Assembly: GCA_003542325.1 (NCBI GenBank)
Contig: DPKV01000067.1
Span: 1 to 9,180 of the forward strand
Source: Anaerolineaceae bacterium
GTDB lineage: Bacteria; Chloroflexota; Anaerolineae; Anaerolineales; Anaerolineaceae
DNA: 9,180 bases
Reading direction: 5' to 3'
The notes beneath the pieces were generated by a model. That model saw only the letters and a program-made list of their open reading frames with translations. It made no database searches and had not been told where the DNA came from. The position numbers were made by a program, and so were the translations under genes. Shown piece after piece: positions 1 through 9,180 of this stretch. Numbering within the stretch: position 1 is the first letter of the stretch; each line of letters opens with the position of its first letter.

Positions 1-1211
1 AGCGGGCTGGCATGTTCAGCTATCTTGACCAGCAGGTTATAGGCAGCCAGACCCAGAGGATAGTCGATGTTCAGGATCAGGGCGTCGCTCTTCTTTAGGA
101 AAGACCAATCCATCGCCACCCCGGAAAAGGAGTTGGGTCTGAGGCGGGGGTCAATGGTCTCGGGATTGAGGGAGGCCAGCTCAATGATTTGAGCTTCCAC
201 GTCAAAGGCGTGCTCGCTGGGGAAACGGTGAATACCGCATTGCTTTTCATATTCCATCTGGTCGTTAAGCAGCTCAATACCTTCCGGGGTGGACTGAAAC
301 TTCTTCATGATGTAATACAGGAAGTTTTCTGGGCGTGAGGGTACCTCTTCGTGGTTGATATCCCGCCATTCCGACAGCAAGGCTTTATCGCCGTCATTGT
401 GCAGGTAATCCGCCAGGCGTTCCTGGTAGGATAGGGCGAAACCCGTCATTAAATTGGGGATGCTGTGGGTGTTGCTGGAGACGAAATAGACCGGGTGGTT
501 TGCGATTTCAGGGTAGCGGTGTTCAATGTTGTCCCACCAAAACCGGGTCGCTCTTCGGTATTCATTTAAGGATCCGCTGAAGAGCTGGATTGCCAGGTCC
601 ATTTTCTCTGCCTTGATCCGTTTGAGCATGGTTTTGAATTGATCTCCCCAGATGGTGTCCAACCGGAAAAGCCCGTCCAATGAGAGTTGAAGGGTGTCGG
701 CCAGTGCCTGCATATCCTCAGCCGTTCCTTGTTCAACCGCTTCAATTTGAGTTTCTGAGTAATCCTGCAAGAGGGTATGTAATTTATTCCATTCGATCTG
801 GAAAGCCGTCATTAACGGAATGACATCGTCAATATCCGAACGGGAGGCAATATAACAGGCCAATAAATCCTTCCCGTTATAAAAACAACGCCGCCTGCGG
901 GCGCGGGCAGACACTTCAGTCCAGTTTTCGACATTTTCCTGACCTGCCTGCATGAACACCGTTGCGCTCTGCCCCATCATGACAACCTTTACATCAATAA
1001 TGCAGGCCGGCAGGCGCAGTACGGCATAAATGAACGAGGACAGGTCAGGTCTTTCCGACCGCGCGAAAGGGTGCAGGGAGGAATTCATCCCGGCGTGGAC
1101 CTCTTCCAGCGTCCGGATGTGGACCCGTGTTGTTGACCGCAGCAAAGAATAAATGGTGCGGAGATACAGATCGATTTCATCAGATGCACGGGTTGGGACT
1201 GTTCGTTCCAT
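1..1211 (-). CDS. Unrecognised conserved-looking protein, C-terminus cut by window edge
   Basis: I do not recognise this gene and assign no function. Reading back from an ATG at 1211 the frame stays open for 403 codons to the left edge, so this is the N-terminal part of a longer protein, not a broken gene. The start is supported by an AAGGA-type ribosome site four to five bases upstream. No signal peptide or clear membrane segment is visible, so it is probably cytoplasmic. Notable stretches are an acidic/helical N-terminus (DEIDLYLRTIYSLLRS, about residues 11-26), a basic run RARRRRC at 103-109, a segment rich in acidic and aromatic residues (SDIDDVIPLMTAFQIEWNKLH, roughly 125-145) and NIDYPLGLAAYNLL near 381-394, just before the edge. 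The last looks like the opening of a further folded domain. Its neighbour across the gap at 1212-1398 is divergent, so no operon partner is visible. Confidence is high that it is a real gene, nil for function. Confidence 0.5.
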   Translation of the reverse strand, partial: MERTVPTRASDEIDLYLRTIYSLLRSTTRVHIRTLEEVHAGMNSSLHPFARSERPDLSSFIYAVLRLPACIIDVKVVMMGQSATVFMQAGQENVENWTEVSARARRRRCFYNGKDLLACYIASRSDIDDVIPLMTAFQIEWNKLHTLLQDYSETQIEAVEQGTAEDMQALADTLQLSLDGLFRLDTIWGDQFKTMLKRIKAEKMDLAIQLFSGSLNEYRRATRFWWDNIEHRYPEIANHPVYFVSSNTHSIPNLMTGFALSYQERLADYLHNDGDKALLSEWRDINHEEVPSRPENFLYYIMKKFQSTPEGIELLNDQMEYEKQCGIHRFPSEHAFDVEAQIIELASLNPETIDPRLRPNSFSGVAMDWSFLKKSDALILNIDYPLGLAAYNLLVKIAEHASP

Positions 1212-2699: not shown

Positions 2700-3440
2700 T
2701 CAGTTAAACTTGAAGGGGGACAAATTCGTTTCCTTATCAAAAATATCGACACCTTCCAAACGTTTCAGGCCGTTCACAATCCAATAGGTGACCGGGGTCA
2801 TCACAGCTTCAAGACCGACCTTGAAGATGTAGTTGGTGACGGTCAGGCTCCAGAACAGACTCCAGGGGAATACGCCCAATGCTGTAGCGACCAGGATGAA
2901 GACGAAGGTGTCTGCCCCCTCACCGATAACGGTGCTGCCGATGGTCCGGGTCCAAAGGAGTTTCCCTTTGGTGAGCACTTTTAAAACTGCCATCAGGATG
3001 GCATTGGAGAAGGAGCCGGCGAAGAACCCCGCCAGGCTGGCGATGATGATCCCGCCGGAACTTATCCCACCGAGGACCAGGTTATAGGCTTCCTGTCCAA
3101 CATCCGCCTGCCAGGTGGCTTCCCCAGGCAGGACCTGCACCAACCAAAAAACCAGCGCGCTGAAGGCGAGGGTGCCAAAACCGATCCAGATGATTCGGCG
3201 GGACCGTTTGAAACCGTAGACCTCGGTGATCACATCACCAAAGATGTAACTGATTGGGAACAGGATTGTCCCGGCATCGAAACTCAATCGAATGGACCCA
3301 AGACTGACCCCCCAGTCGATGATCTTGGCAGAGGAGGCGATATTGCTGAGAACGAGGACGACGACGAAAATAACTGTGATAATATCAAGATACTTAAATG
3401 GCTGAGGAGTTGATTCGGTTTTGCTTTTTTCGTTTTTCAT
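2700..3440 (-). CDS. yhhQ: Queuosine precursor transporter, YhhQ (Vut_1) family
   Basis: This 246-residue integral membrane protein belongs to the YhhQ/QPTR family, which imports queuosine precursors such as preQ0, preQ1 or queuine across the cytoplasmic membrane. The hallmark segments are present: FDAGTILFPISYIFGDVITE at 54-73 followed by VYGFKRSRR, and SNAILMAVLK at 145-154 with LWTRTIGSTVIGEGADT at 162-178. About six hydrophobic segments are visible, starting near 19-35, 50-68, 83-103, 128-155, 175-195 and 198-222. The N-terminus is short and charged with no cleavable signal. The start ATG at 3440 has a GGAG ribosome site seven bases upstream. A gene for Tgt, the enzyme that inserts the precursor into tRNA, lies at the right edge of the window, which supports this assignment. 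The precise precursor is unknown. Length is close to the family norm. Confidence 0.5.
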   Translation of the reverse strand: MKNEKSKTESTPQPFKYLDIITVIFVVVLVLSNIASSAKIIDWGVSLGSIRLSFDAGTILFPISYIFGDVITEVYGFKRSRRIIWIGFGTLAFSALVFWLVQVLPGEATWQADVGQEAYNLVLGGISSGGIIIASLAGFFAGSFSNAILMAVLKVLTKGKLLWTRTIGSTVIGEGADTFVFILVATALGVFPWSLFWSLTVTNYIFKVGLEAVMTPVTYWIVNGLKRLEGVDIFDKETNLSPFKFN

Positions 3441-5241: not shown

Positions 5242-5966
5242 TGATGCTGAGTAGATGGTTGATTAATCACCTGATTAAATTCATCACACGGATCATTTTG
5301 TGCGTGGATGATTCCGAACTTGCCAAAATCCCGGACCATGGACCTTTGCTCGTCGTAGTCAACCATGTCAACTCACTGGATGCGCCGGTGATGATCAGCC
5401 ATTTGCATCCCCGGCCGACAACCAGCCTGGTGAAGAAAGAGACCTGGGATAGTCCAATCCTTGGTTTTCTGTTCAATATCTGGGATGGCATCCCGCTTGA
5501 CCGGGATAATGCTGATTTTGCTGCCTTCAGCCTGGCTCAGAAAGCTCTATTGGAAGAGAAAATCCTGGCCGTAGCGCCGGAAGGTACCCGGACGCGGGAT
5601 GGTCTTCTAATTCAGGCTAAACCCGGGATTGCGATGTTGGCCATTAAAGCCGGTGTTCCGATATTACCGGTGGCCTACTTTGGACATGAAGGTTTTGTCG
5701 ATAACCTCAAGCACTTGCGGCGGACCCCCATGAAAATTCGGGTGGGTGAACCATTCCATATTCAACTGAACGGTCTTGCCAGGAGTAAAACACTGATGCA
5801 GGAAGTCGCCGACGAGATGATGATCGAAATCGCAAAACTCATGCCAGAGGAATACCGCGGATATTACGCAAAACAGGTCAACCACCAACAGAAATATATC
5901 CTAACCGATGGATTGGCGGGGCAGCATATTGCGAAGCCGCTTGGGGTGCAATTTTCCCAGGCCTAA
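5241..5966 (+). CDS. plsC: 1-acyl-glycerol-3-phosphate acyltransferase (PlsC family)
   Basis: PlsC-type enzymes transfer a fatty acyl chain to lysophosphatidate, giving phosphatidate for phospholipid synthesis at the cytoplasmic membrane. The 241-residue protein has the catalytic NHX4D motif as NHVNSLD (His42, Asp47), GIPLDRDN at 83-90, the substrate-binding APEGTRTRDG at 112-121, and GVPILPVAYFG at 138-148. A hydrophobic N-terminal stretch (about 6-21) probably anchors it. The ATG overlaps the lipid-kinase stop, and a second ATG follows directly, so the start is uncertain by one codon. Together with the upstream kinase, the two would feed phosphatidate by two routes: kinase acting on diacylglycerol and acyltransferase acting on lysophosphatidate. 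The last 66 bases overlap the 3' end of the convergent rsmF gene, and no terminator is visible between them. Acyl-acceptor specificity cannot be read from sequence. Confidence 0.5.
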   Translation: MMLSRWLINHLIKFITRIILCVDDSELAKIPDHGPLLVVVNHVNSLDAPVMISHLHPRPTTSLVKKETWDSPILGFLFNIWDGIPLDRDNADFAAFSLAQKALLEEKILAVAPEGTRTRDGLLIQAKPGIAMLAIKAGVPILPVAYFGHEGFVDNLKHLRRTPMKIRVGEPFHIQLNGLARSKTLMQEVADEMMIEIAKLMPEEYRGYYAKQVNHQQKYILTDGLAGQHIAKPLGVQFSQA

Positions 5967-7370
5967 ATTTCGACCGGCCGGGTCTGTCACCAACAGATAC
6001 TGGCCGTCTGGTTTAAGGGAACTGTCCGGGTGCCGGATATCTCTTCCGGCGATCCATTGTGGGACGTCTGCCTCAGCTATTTGAATTATTCCCTGTACAA
6101 AGTGATGACCAAAGCGACTGACAAATTCCGCGGAAGGCTCAAAATCCTCCCCGATTTTACGTCCAAGCGGCATCCCGATATATTCAAAGGGCAGCGTTTG
6201 GAAACCGCTGAGGTAGCGGGAGGGGATCAGGAAGGTTTGATCGTGGCGGCCAAATAATTCGAGTCCCTGATATTCCAACACTTCCGACACATACAATCCA
6301 TAATTCACGGAGATGATCCCGGCGATATGATCCTTTTCAGAATCGGACAGCCTGCGAAGGTTCGTCCGATCAAAGTCGCGCGTGGGTGGCAGCGTGGGTT
6401 GGGATGGCATGGGCGCAGTCTTGCGGAGAAGCGCGCAGAAGAAGCCGGACATCCCTGTGATATGCGGCCAAAGGTGGAGAGCGTGCAGCAGGGAGGGATC
6501 ATAGGTTTGGTCTTCAAATTGAGTCAGGCCGGGAACTTGGTATGGAAACTTTTGGGAGACGTCCACGATTTCAAAATTGTGGGGGAGGGCACGCAGAAGT
6601 GCATCCAAAACCGCCTCGTCTTCTTCAGGCGCAAGCGAACAGGTGGCGTACACCAATTGACCGCCGACCTTGAGACATTGCAGTCCGCTGGAGAGGAGCT
6701 GAACCTGACGGTCTTTCAGGCGCAGACGTTCGTCCCGTGTGGTCTCCCGGAGGGGGTGGTTCGGCGTCGGGCGCAGGTTTTCCATGCTGCACGGCGCATC
6801 CAGAAGGACGAGGTCAAAGGTTTCGGGATACCAATCCCCAAAGGATTCGCCGGGGTAATTGGTGACGGCGAAGTTAGCGCCGCCCCAGTTGGCAAGCACG
6901 GCTTTGAGGGCGGCTATCCGGCTTTTACTGCCGTCATTGGCGAGGATGAAACCGCGGTCAAGGGTCCGGTCGATGAGGTGGGTCGTTTTACCACCCGGCG
7001 AAGCGGCCATATCCAGAATCAACGGATGGGGATTCTCGAGGTCGAATAGTGAGACCGGCACCATGGAGGCGGCGTCCTGCAGGTAGTAGCCGCCCAAACG
7101 GTGCTCGATGGTTGTCCCGGGGGATGATTGGGCTGATTGGATGGTCCAGGCGTTTTCACAAAAAGGAATGGGTTGGGTCTGCCAGCCATAGTGTTCCGCC
7201 AGGGCATGGATTGTCTCTGCGGGATCATCCGTTTTGAGGGGGTTGATCCGGATGCCGGTGGGCAATGGCTGCGATTGGAGATCGAGGATTTGCTGGATTT
7301 CTTCTACGGTGAGCGTTCCCACGAAACGGGACAGGCTGTGGTTTAAGGGGTTCGAGGCGTTTTCGGTCAC
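5901..7370 (-). CDS. rsmF: RsmF-type 16S rRNA m5C methyltransferase (NOL1/NOP2/Sun family)
   Basis: RsmF-type enzymes make 5-methylcytosine in 16S rRNA; E. coli RsmF acts on C1407, in helix 44. The predicted 489 residues are close to E. coli RsmF (479). In order: RINPLK at 41-46; S-adenosylmethionine motif DMAASPGGKTT at 120-130; motif IV DAPCS at 191-195; motif VI YATCSLAPEEDEAV at 241-254, with Cys244 the expected nucleophile; and a C-terminal PUA-like region (about 400-489) that supports the RsmF subgroup. The residue after DAPCS is Met, where most members have Gly (CSGxG), and the following ENLRP is atypical. I prefer the GTG at 7370: GGGAG lies eight bases upstream and the GTGA overlaps the preceding stop. 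The frame stays open to a TTG at 7388 but that start has no good ribosome site. This is the last gene of the tgt operon. Another m5C target (for example C1400-region or C967-like) cannot be excluded. Confidence 0.5.
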   Translation of the reverse strand: MTENASNPLNHSLSRFVGTLTVEEIQQILDLQSQPLPTGIRINPLKTDDPAETIHALAEHYGWQTQPIPFCENAWTIQSAQSSPGTTIEHRLGGYYLQDAASMVPVSLFDLENPHPLILDMAASPGGKTTHLIDRTLDRGFILANDGSKSRIAALKAVLANWGGANFAVTNYPGESFGDWYPETFDLVLLDAPCSMENLRPTPNHPLRETTRDERLRLKDRQVQLLSSGLQCLKVGGQLVYATCSLAPEEDEAVLDALLRALPHNFEIVDVSQKFPYQVPGLTQFEDQTYDPSLLHALHLWPHITGMSGFFCALLRKTAPMPSQPTLPPTRDFDRTNLRRLSDSEKDHIAGIISVNYGLYVSEVLEYQGLELFGRHDQTFLIPSRYLSGFQTLPFEYIGMPLGRKIGEDFEPSAEFVSRFGHHFVQGIIQIAEADVPQWIAGRDIRHPDSSLKPDGQYLLVTDPAGRNLGLGKLHPKRLRNMLPRQSIG

Positions 7371-8197
7371 CGGGTTGTCTCCCGCCAATGGTTTAAGACA
7401 AAGAAGATTTCGTCTTTGAATACTAATTCATCCACAACACTCCCATCAGGCAGGTTTTCATGGACCAGGCTGCGATGCTGGTCGAGGAGGGAATGTGTCC
7501 CGGCCAGGTTTTGGGTCGGCAGGGAGATGGCCAGGCAGTCCACTTTCAGGCTGGCCCAGAACGCCCGGTTGCACCCTGGCTGGCGTTTTTCGAAGCGGTG
7601 GGCTTCCTTGAAGAAAATGCCCAAATCCGCTCTGATCTCAGGCGGGTGGACAAGGATATCCCTGTTTTCAGCCAGTGGTTCCATACCCAGGATGGAAAAA
7701 TACTGGTTGATGAAATCCACCCGCGGCTGGACGATGTCATAGGCGTGGTATTGGGTCGATACTGGCAGCCCCATCCAGGGAAAGGCAAGGGGATGCAGGG
7801 CACAGGCCAGGTCGAGGATACTGGCGGGTTTTCCGGTTAGGGCGAACAACCGCTCGTAGAGTTCCGTTTGATAGGGGATCCGTTCAGCGGTCGAGGCATG
7901 TTCACGAAGCACAGTCAGGGCTAAATCCTGAAGCTCTGGGGAACCTAATTCGGGATGATCCATGGCTGCCAATTGCCTGGTCAGGTTGGTATAATCCGGT
8001 TCGCCTAAATAAGGGGCAATGATGTTATGCAGCTTGCGGCGGACGGTTTTGTAGACTGCTTTCTCGGAAGGCTGACGCAGTATTTCCTGCTGGATGAGGT
8101 CCAGAACGGTATCCGGGTTGAGCCCCGCTGACCGGTATTTGCTCGAGTCCAGAACCCGTGCCAGAAGCGCTTGCGTGTCCAGGTCCGCCAGGTTCAT
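7367..8197 (-). CDS. Divergent Arm/Rmt-type (FmrO family) methyltransferase paralogue, probably altered or inactive
   Basis: This 276-residue protein is a paralogue of the gene just upstream, sharing its domain order: a helical N-terminal rRNA-binding part (KLHNIIAPYLGEPDYTN at 55-71), the conserved HASTAER at 100-106, and a Rossmann methyltransferase part with DLACALHPL at 129-137 and YDIV at 153-156. Three sites that define the family are changed. The motif I glycine is Ala (DLACAL for DLACGL). The segment equivalent to LLKTIPCLE reads FFKEAHRFE (195-203). The SFPxxSLGGRxKGM segment reads ISLPTQNLAGTHSLL (224-238), losing the basic GGRxKGM stretch. It may be a non-catalytic partner or have another target; this is inference. 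The ATG overlaps the upstream stop by four bases (ATGA), and its own stop overlaps the rsmF GTG in the same way, so translation of all three is probably coupled. No frameshift or internal stop is present, so it is maintained as a gene. Confidence 0.5.
   Translation of the reverse strand: MNLADLDTQALLARVLDSSKYRSAGLNPDTVLDLIQQEILRQPSEKAVYKTVRRKLHNIIAPYLGEPDYTNLTRQLAAMDHPELGSPELQDLALTVLREHASTAERIPYQTELYERLFALTGKPASILDLACALHPLAFPWMGLPVSTQYHAYDIVQPRVDFINQYFSILGMEPLAENRDILVHPPEIRADLGIFFKEAHRFEKRQPGCNRAFWASLKVDCLAISLPTQNLAGTHSLLDQHRSLVHENLPDGSVVDELVFKDEIFFVLNHWRETTR
7379..7383 (-). promoter_or_regulatory. Ribosome binding site deciding the rsmF start
   Basis: Read on the minus strand this is GGGAG, eight bases before the GTG at 7370. 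It lies inside the end of the preceding gene. It would be downstream of the alternative TTG at 7388 and so argues against that longer form. Confidence 0.5.
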
Positions 8198-9003
8198 TTG
8201 GTCACCAGAAAGGCTATTTCGGAGTCGAATGTAAACTCATTAATTGACCAGGGCTTGCCTTCCATCATACCCAGAAAGTGGTCCCGGTAATACGTGGGCA
8301 TGCCTTTCCTTCTCCCGCCAAGACTGGCAGCGGGGAAGGAGACCAGGATGTGTTTGGCCCTGATCGATTCCAGCAGGGGCAGGGCGACGTTTTTATCCAC
8401 TTGTTCCAGACAGGGAATGGTCTTCAACAGGAAAGCGACCTGGGCTGTTTCGGCGGGCGGCTGTCCAATCAGATCGCAGGCAGCGGTCTGGCCGTCAATC
8501 CGGCAATGGTCAAAGAAAGTCTGAATGAAATCCAGCATGTCGGCATAGATATCGCAGGCCTGATAGGTAAAACGTTCTCCCAGCGGCATCCAGGGGATTG
8601 AGAGAGGAGTCAGGCCGCAAGCCAGGTCCAGAATGCCGGTGACCGGGGCAATGGGAGCCAGGCAGGTTTGAAAGAAGTTTTCAAGGATCGGCAGCCGTTC
8701 GGCTGTGGAAGCGTGCATACTCATCTGTGTCCGGCAGAATTGCTGGACCGATTCGGCGTGGACATCTCCGGGCAGAGTGGCTAATGCAGCCAAAGTATTT
8801 GCATAATCGGGTGAATGTTTGAAGTAAGCCCCGCCGACCTGATGCAGTTTATTGCGGACGTCTTTGACGGCCGAATTTCCTTTTAAGCCTTTTTGGAGGG
8901 TCGCTTCGGCGAGCCTGCGGATCAGGTCAGTGGAAATGTGTGTGTATTTACGGCCGGCCTGGACCTCGGCGATGAGTTGTTTGACCTGTGTGTTATCTGT
9001 CAT
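8194..9003 (-). CDS. Arm/Rmt-type 16S rRNA (guanine-1405-N7)-methyltransferase homologue
   Basis: Enzymes of this family (RmtA-H, ArmA, Sgm, FmrO) methylate N7 of G1405 in helix 44 and make ribosomes resistant to 4,6-linked aminoglycosides such as gentamicin, kanamycin and amikacin. The 269-residue protein matches the motifs I recall from RmtB (251 residues) end to end: KLHQVGGAY at 52-60, HASTAER at 97-103, S-adenosylmethionine motif DLACGLTPL at 126-134, CDIYADM at 150-156, LLKTIPCLEQ at 192-201 and VSFPAASLGGRRKGM at 221-235. All positions I associate with cofactor and RNA binding look intact, so activity is likely. The ATG overlaps the end of tgt by 11 bases and has GGAA upstream; the stop overlaps the next gene by four. 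Its place inside an operon of translation genes, without any mobile element, suggests a resident gene and not an acquired resistance gene. The exact target base is inferred from the family. Confidence 0.5.
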   Translation of the reverse strand: MTDNTQVKQLIAEVQAGRKYTHISTDLIRRLAEATLQKGLKGNSAVKDVRNKLHQVGGAYFKHSPDYANTLAALATLPGDVHAESVQQFCRTQMSMHASTAERLPILENFFQTCLAPIAPVTGILDLACGLTPLSIPWMPLGERFTYQACDIYADMLDFIQTFFDHCRIDGQTAACDLIGQPPAETAQVAFLLKTIPCLEQVDKNVALPLLESIRAKHILVSFPAASLGGRRKGMPTYYRDHFLGMMEGKPWSINEFTFDSEIAFLVTK

Positions 9004-9180
9004 GACGTTCCAGCCGTTCCGTCAGTTGGGTCATGAACCGCAGGTTGTGCAGTGTCGCCAGCCGATAAAAGAGCCAATCGCCAGTTTTAAACAAGTGGTG
9101 CAGGTAACCCAGGGAATAATGGGTGCAAACCGGACAGTCACAGAACTCCGAGACCGGGCGGGTGTCCTTGATATATTTTT
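8993..9180 (-). CDS. tgt: tRNA-guanine transglycosylase Tgt, C-terminal end only
   Basis: Tgt replaces the wobble guanine of tRNAs with GUN anticodons by preQ1, the first tRNA-bound step of queuosine synthesis. Only the last 61 residues are in the window; the gene continues past the right edge. The fragment shows the complete zinc site: CDCPVC followed after 25 residues by the His of TLHNLRF, the exact CxCx2Cx25H spacing of the family. YLHHLF between them is also typical. The stop codon TAA is at 8995-8993, and the gene overlaps the next ATG by 11 bases, so tgt heads the visible part of the operon. The yhhQ transporter in the same window would supply its substrate. The translation was made by hand because the frame enters from outside. 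Confidence 0.5.
   Translation of the reverse strand, partial: KYIKDTRPVSEFCDCPVCTHYSLGYLHHLFKTGDWLFYRLATLHNLRFMTQLTERLERHDR

Follow-up and report, generated by a model that had tools for sequence, protein, structure and literature searches.

A conserved paralogue of a predicted 16S rRNA m7G1405 methyltransferase in Anaerolineaceae: a candidate enzyme with a changed target

The window analysed here, the whole of a contig (C12, 9180 bases) from an Anaerolineaceae genome assembly of 1.84 Mb and 67% completeness, carries two adjacent genes, termed A and B, of the Arm/Rmt family of 16S rRNA methyltransferases. Enzymes of this family are known chiefly as aminoglycoside-resistance factors. The question raised by the locus is what the second protein does, as stretches typical of the family are replaced in it: it could be a silent partner of the first, or an enzyme with a target of its own. 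With moderate confidence, A is read as a predicted m7G1405 methyltransferase and B as an anciently diverged, conserved paralogue, which likely still binds S-adenosylmethionine (SAM) and the 30S subunit and would methylate another position of the decoding centre. The two genes are located as follows:

8194..9003, minus strand: gene A, predicted 16S rRNA m7G1405-type (Rmt/FmrO) methyltransferase, 269 amino acids (Pfam FmrO, match to Sgm 3lcu, AlphaFold2 model)
7367..8197, minus strand: gene B, diverged Rmt/FmrO paralogue, 276 amino acids (Pfam FmrO)
8194..8197, minus strand: ATGA, 4-bp overlap of the A stop and the B start

Both open reading frames are present where the initial annotation had placed a tandem Arm/Rmt pair, and both proteins belong to the Pfam FmrO family (PF07091), scoring 156.3 bits (A) and 124.2 bits (B) against a cut-off of 27 bits. 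A matches Sgm (3lcu) with an expect value (E) of 2.2e-36, and its AlphaFold2 model has a mean predicted local distance difference test (pLDDT) score of 96.2. As had also been noted, A and B align end to end (26% identity, E 1e-27), share the HASTAER motif, and are joined by the 4-bp overlap, with the frame of B open over its 276 codons. With the NCBIfam Rmt equivalog NF000466 (16S rRNA G1405-N7 methyltransferase), A scores 197.3 and B 156.0 bits, both below the curated 250-bit cut-off, and neither is therefore filed as a proven G1405 enzyme. A, although below this cut-off, is predicted to be active on G1405.

The motifs of the two proteins are listed below, with their conservation in the A and B proteins of the family (from an alignment for which 240 sequences were taken and 4 under 200 amino acids dropped first) or in 352 distinct B sequences (362 minus 10 identical or contained ones; 236 of the 352 came from searches with B queries and are hence selected for B likeness):

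8695..8715, minus strand: A HASTAER, residues 97-103; H97, E102 and R103 in 113/113 family A proteins
8605..8628, minus strand: A motif I DLACGLTP, residues 126-133; D126 and G130 in 113/113
8401..8424, minus strand: A motif IV region KTIPCLEQ, residues 194-201; K194 and P197 in 113/113
8299..8319, minus strand: A GGRRKGM, residues 229-235; G234 in 113/113, M235 in 109/113
7880..7900, minus strand: B HASTAER, residues 100-106; H100, E105 and R106 in 352/352 distinct B sequences
7790..7813, minus strand: B motif I DLACALHP, residues 129-136; D129 in 352/352, P136 in 351/352
7721..7738, minus strand: B motif II acid and B-specific Arg, DIVQPR, residues 154-159; D154 in 351/352, R159 in 352/352
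7574..7609, minus strand: B signature KEAHRFEKRQPG, residues 197-208, directly past strand 4 (190-196, from the model); K197, E198 and R201 in 352/352
7475..7522, minus strand: B altered loop after strand 5, residues 226-241, replacing GGRxKGM; position of the KGM Gly empty in 101/101 aligned family B proteins

The HxSTxER motif and the SAM-site acids of the Arm/Rmt enzymes are present in both proteins. The typical stretches K-x-x-P-x-L-E and G-x-x-K-G-M are both found in A, and neither in the B of the window, which bears out the reported absence of GGRxKGM. Position 132 of A is Asn in 102 of the 113 family proteins and Thr in nine; the window A has Thr. The initial annotation had described the catalytic signature of B as eroded, and this description does not hold: the SAM-site residues and HxSTxER are kept, and B has an invariant motif of its own, K-E-x-[H/P]-R, at the place of K-x-x-P-x-L-E. 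The loss of SAM-binding residues that would mark a pseudo-enzyme of the Trm6/Trm61 kind is not seen, as D129 and D180 are present in all 352 sequences and D154 in 351. Within the family, H100, E105, R106, D129, A131, C132, P136, D154, R159, D180, K197, E198, H200, R201 and R205 are invariant in 101 B proteins, and K197, E198 and R201 are also constant in all 129 clusters formed at 70% identity. Several codons encode the invariant residues. In the structure model, K197 and E198 sit between strand 4 and a helix. In the general layout of Rossmann-type methyltransferases, the site directly after strand 4 belongs to motif IV and forms part of the active site, and K-E-x-[H/P]-R is assigned to motif IV on account of this position.

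By its sequence, B falls into two subtypes, K-E-x-H-R...R and K-E-x-P-R...N. At position 200, 220 of the distinct sequences have His, 131 have Pro and one has Arg; every His200 form has Arg at 205, and 129 of the 131 Pro200 forms have Asn there. The Pro form also retains Gly-Gly and the next Tyr (132/132 in the set of 362), in which it is closer to A. Residues 200 (window 7598-7600) and 205 (7583-7585) thus co-vary in 349 of 352 sequences; they may touch, or may merely mark two lineages.

The loss of the motif I glycine, also claimed for B, is true of the window protein (Ala133) and is rejected as evidence of lost catalysis, since most B proteins have Gly here (298 Gly and 54 Ala of 352; 62 and 39 of 101 within the family) and RmtC has Ala. 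RmtC resembles the window B both in this Ala (DAGCALNP) and in a motif IV region that lacks Pro; unlike B, it keeps the GM of the KGM loop and is without the Glu, His and Arg of the B motif. As RmtC is without part of both K-x-x-P-x-L-E and G-x-x-K-G-M, these stretches are a typical and not an absolute feature. RmtC is reported to methylate G1405 (PMC12406665).

B also retains Tyr63, the RmtC counterpart of which we take to flank the flipped base; the Met of KGM, presumably, lines the G1405 pocket in RmtC. The cofactor-site residues, HxSTxER and Tyr63, all kept, together with a new invariant set of motif IV residues, argue for an enzyme with a changed target and not for a dead subunit, and B is likely catalytically active. 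Of the two possibilities proposed earlier, a pseudo-enzyme partner is thus weakened, and a paralogue directed at a new target fits better.

In a tree of 108 rows the B proteins form one group of 42 rows (support of 100 in the Shimodaira-Hasegawa-like approximate likelihood ratio test, SH-aLRT), drawn from seven families of the class (f1, f10, f20, f124, f134, f144, f145), and the A and reference rows are intermixed, with RmtB and RmtC on long branches. The B clade is recovered with 100/100 support in a tree of 52 rows, from which the signature columns were removed and RmtB and RmtC left out (Sgm was retained). A single B clade over seven families means that the split of A and B is older than the family, and a recent local duplication is rejected on the same ground.

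Both genes are under purifying selection. Ratios of nonsynonymous to synonymous substitution (dN/dS) were calculated with a Nei-Gojobori script. The 94 loci that carry A and B give 4371 pairs, of which the 89 with dS < 1.6 were used. In the eight closest pairs (dS < 0.5 in both genes) the ratios range from 0.08 to 0.23 in A and from 0.12 to 0.22 in B; the medians over the 89 pairs, 0.39 for A and 0.35 for B, are high as most pairs are near saturation, and B exceeds A in 39 of them. A decaying pseudogene is rejected for B, with these low ratios and with 101 of 105 family copies open over at least 255 amino acids; of the four short pieces, three are cut off where the contig ends (L051, L117, L142) and one starts at a contig end (L046). 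One stop inside the profile span was found in 9 of 113 B matches, each still with an open frame of 266-280 amino acids; we take these stops, which were not checked individually, as profile ends overrunning the gene.

PF07091 is found in 127 of the 147 genomes of the family; 108 of these have two matches, 15 a single one and four have three. When called with separate A and B profiles (E 1e-80 or less), both genes are present in 105 genomes, A only in 11, B only in eight and neither in 23, the single-gene classes being partly due to contig breaks (Fisher p 2.4e-12 for co-occurrence, uncorrected for kinship). B is not absent, decaying or evolving neutrally in relatives, outcomes that the initial annotation had named as speaking against its reading. 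Among the A-only genomes, three carry part of B where a contig ends (G016, G073, G133) and in one A itself reaches the contig end (G092); the other seven (G098, G151, G154, G155, G160, G161, G163) have the order tgt-A-rsmF, B being absent from the locus (L044, L088, L110, L145, L076, L100, L063), and a single PF07091 match per genome. Of the B-only genomes, five have two or three PF07091 matches and three have one (G067, G140, G156). Both genes are missing from all five genomes of genus g20, which shows that the pair can be lost, and neither gene is essential, given the seven genomes without B and the 23 without either. A scan of genome contigs gave three loci, the named relatives being two Anaerolineaceae metagenome-assembled genomes and one Chloroflexi metagenome-assembled genome.

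Several of the results weigh against the reading of B as an active enzyme with a changed target. B stays under the threshold of NCBI's curated Rmt model, and the replacement of KGM would fit a loss of catalysis as well. The invariance of an active site can outlast catalysis when a ligand is still bound. B appears slightly less constrained than A in the closest comparisons (higher dN/dS in five of the eight pairs), it is cleanly absent from the seven genomes that keep tgt-A-rsmF, and 23 of 147 genomes do without both genes.

The genes that flank the pair in the window are:

8993..9180, minus strand: 3' end of tgt (queuine tRNA-ribosyltransferase, Pfam TGT), overlapping the start of A
5901..7388, minus strand: rsmF-like gene (m5C1407 methyltransferase family), downstream, overlapping the end of B (Pfam RsmB/F, 123.8 bits)

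Each of the four genes from tgt to rsmF overlaps the next (tgt/A 8993-9003, A/B 8194-8197, B/rsmF 7367-7388). The top NCBIfam model for the rsmF-like gene is RsmF, at 262 bits and thus under its cut-off of 588; the window further encodes RsmI (TIGR00096), an RsmE-family protein (TIGR00046) and a queuosine-precursor transporter (TIGR00697), each over its cut-off. RsmF, RsmI and RsmE belong to other families than A and B and are their neighbours, not their relatives; they act around the decoding centre, at C1407, C1402 and U1498, near G1405 (PMC12406665).

With the window excluded, tgt precedes A in 108 of 112 family copies (two contig ends; two without, L111 and L154) and rsmF follows B in 100 of 104 (three contig ends, one without). 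Where A and B are on separate stretches, rsmF accompanies B (L078, L091, L109, L112, L127, L141) and tgt accompanies A (L079, L090, L155, L126, L106), L111 being the exception in which tgt was not seen. Outside the family, the f10 locus L174 has the order tgt-A-B-rsmE-rsmI, and B adjoins rsmE in two f20 loci (L167, L172); the f10 locus L175 had no such genes next to B. B is thus accompanied by genes for decoding-centre methyltransferases in almost every locus seen.

In all 98 loci with both genes on the same strand (97 of the family, the window included, and one of f10), A is the upstream gene. The two overlap by 4 bp in 55, are within -16 to +39 bp in 36, and are 0.5-2.8 kb apart in seven. 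The intervening genes differ among the three of these seven spread-out loci that were inspected; named from translations without a family search, they are a sensor kinase and a response regulator (L144), genes on the opposite strand (L069), and one open reading frame of 505 amino acids (L042).

This arrangement, the co-occurrence of the two genes and the loss of KGM from B are what would be expected if B bound SAM but were silent in catalysis and formed a two-protein G1405 methyltransferase with A. We regard this main rival as unlikely. B has its SAM-site residues and a new invariant active-site motif, A occurs without B in seven family genomes, and PF07091 is matched in 77 of 400 sampled genomes of the phylum, with a lone match in 59 of the 77. 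A and B are, moreover, not adjacent in the f145 genome, nor in those f20 genomes in which the two occur. To our knowledge, the known Rmt enzymes act alone. The heterodimers Trm6/Trm61 and METTL3/METTL14 are similar in that two homologous genes of the methyltransferase fold are involved. Their silent partners, Trm6 and METTL14, have lost SAM binding, whereas B keeps its SAM-site residues and A is found without it.

It is improbable that B methylates G1405 as well (or another atom of the same base), as a redundant or conditional second copy: the fold and HxSTxER are shared and RmtC shows that the exact K-x-x-P and R-x-K-G-M are dispensable, but residues found only in B are strictly conserved over seven families, pointing to a distinct task, and 105 of 147 family genomes retain the two genes. 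We give equally little credence to B as a 30S-docking helper for RsmF or subunit assembly, with SAM binding merely a switch. In favour of this, B adjoins rsmF even when A is elsewhere, and a block of RsmF at C1407 by Sgm and by RmtC has been reported (PMC12406665); against it, B is beside rsmE instead in f20 and f10, and tgt-A-rsmF loci without B exist.

A change of the 16S rRNA target itself was also considered; the target pattern gave 57 matches in 50 of the 147 genomes (45 exact and 12 with one or two mismatches, some of them maybe chance matches) and zero in the window's own genome.

Under the favoured reading of B as an enzyme with a changed target, Tgt, A, B and RsmF would be produced from one transcript, and A and B would dock successively on the same 30S surface. 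B could seat another base, probably in or near helix 44, by means of the rewritten motif IV together with the loop that follows strand 5, and the action of RsmF at C1407 may be modulated by one or the other modification. A further proposal, which we put forward tentatively, is that B founds a second, so far unrecognized specificity among the Arm/Rmt enzymes. It would be a chromosomally encoded rRNA methyltransferase whose motif IV reads K-E-x-[H/P]-R, directed at a decoding-centre nucleotide that the known enzymes leave unmodified, so that Anaerolineae ribosomes would have a doubly altered A site in normal ribosome building. B differs from the m7G1405 enzymes (Sgm, RmtB, RmtC, RmtF, ArmA) in this motif and in the lost KGM, and the pair differs from the resistance enzymes in its setting, as A and B adjoin tgt and rsmF in Chloroflexota, with no mobile-element genes as neighbours in the window. 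The presence of an Arm/Rmt pair in most of a bacterial family, within a cluster of rRNA and tRNA modification genes, suggests a housekeeping branch of the Arm/Rmt family, and it may bear on the origin of the mobile resistance genes. A paralogue with a rewritten yet invariant active site would, if the reading is true, be a natural experiment on the choice of the target base. Methylation of G1405 by A, if true, is expected to affect 4,6-linked aminoglycosides, though resistance itself is not argued. No paper on the Arm/Rmt family in Chloroflexi, Chloroflexota or Anaerolineae was found in the open-access library searched, nor among the broader matches listed, as judged by title and opening of the abstract; subscription papers are mostly outside this scope, so this is no proof of absence.

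Some further observations concern the same genes and their surroundings. The sole FmrO protein of a 99% complete single-contig genome (G031; L154:4545-5366) is A-like, on a long branch and without KGM; rsmF comes after it, and tgt was not seen before it. Directly upstream of tgt, a diverged second RsmI-like protein is encoded in L073 (2661-3362) and in 31 further family loci. It scores 46-153 bits against the window RsmI (the lowest being cut by a contig end), while most opposite-strand rsmI products score 200-337, so that the cluster contains a diverged paralogue from another family of decoding-centre methyltransferases as well. The queuosine-precursor transporter gene of the window (2700-3440, minus strand) is a few kb from tgt, and this may connect the salvage of queuosine with decoding-centre modification. 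At 3-1211 (minus strand) the window encodes a partial protein with a Pfam DUF6909 match of 441.9 bits and no NCBIfam match at 1e-5.
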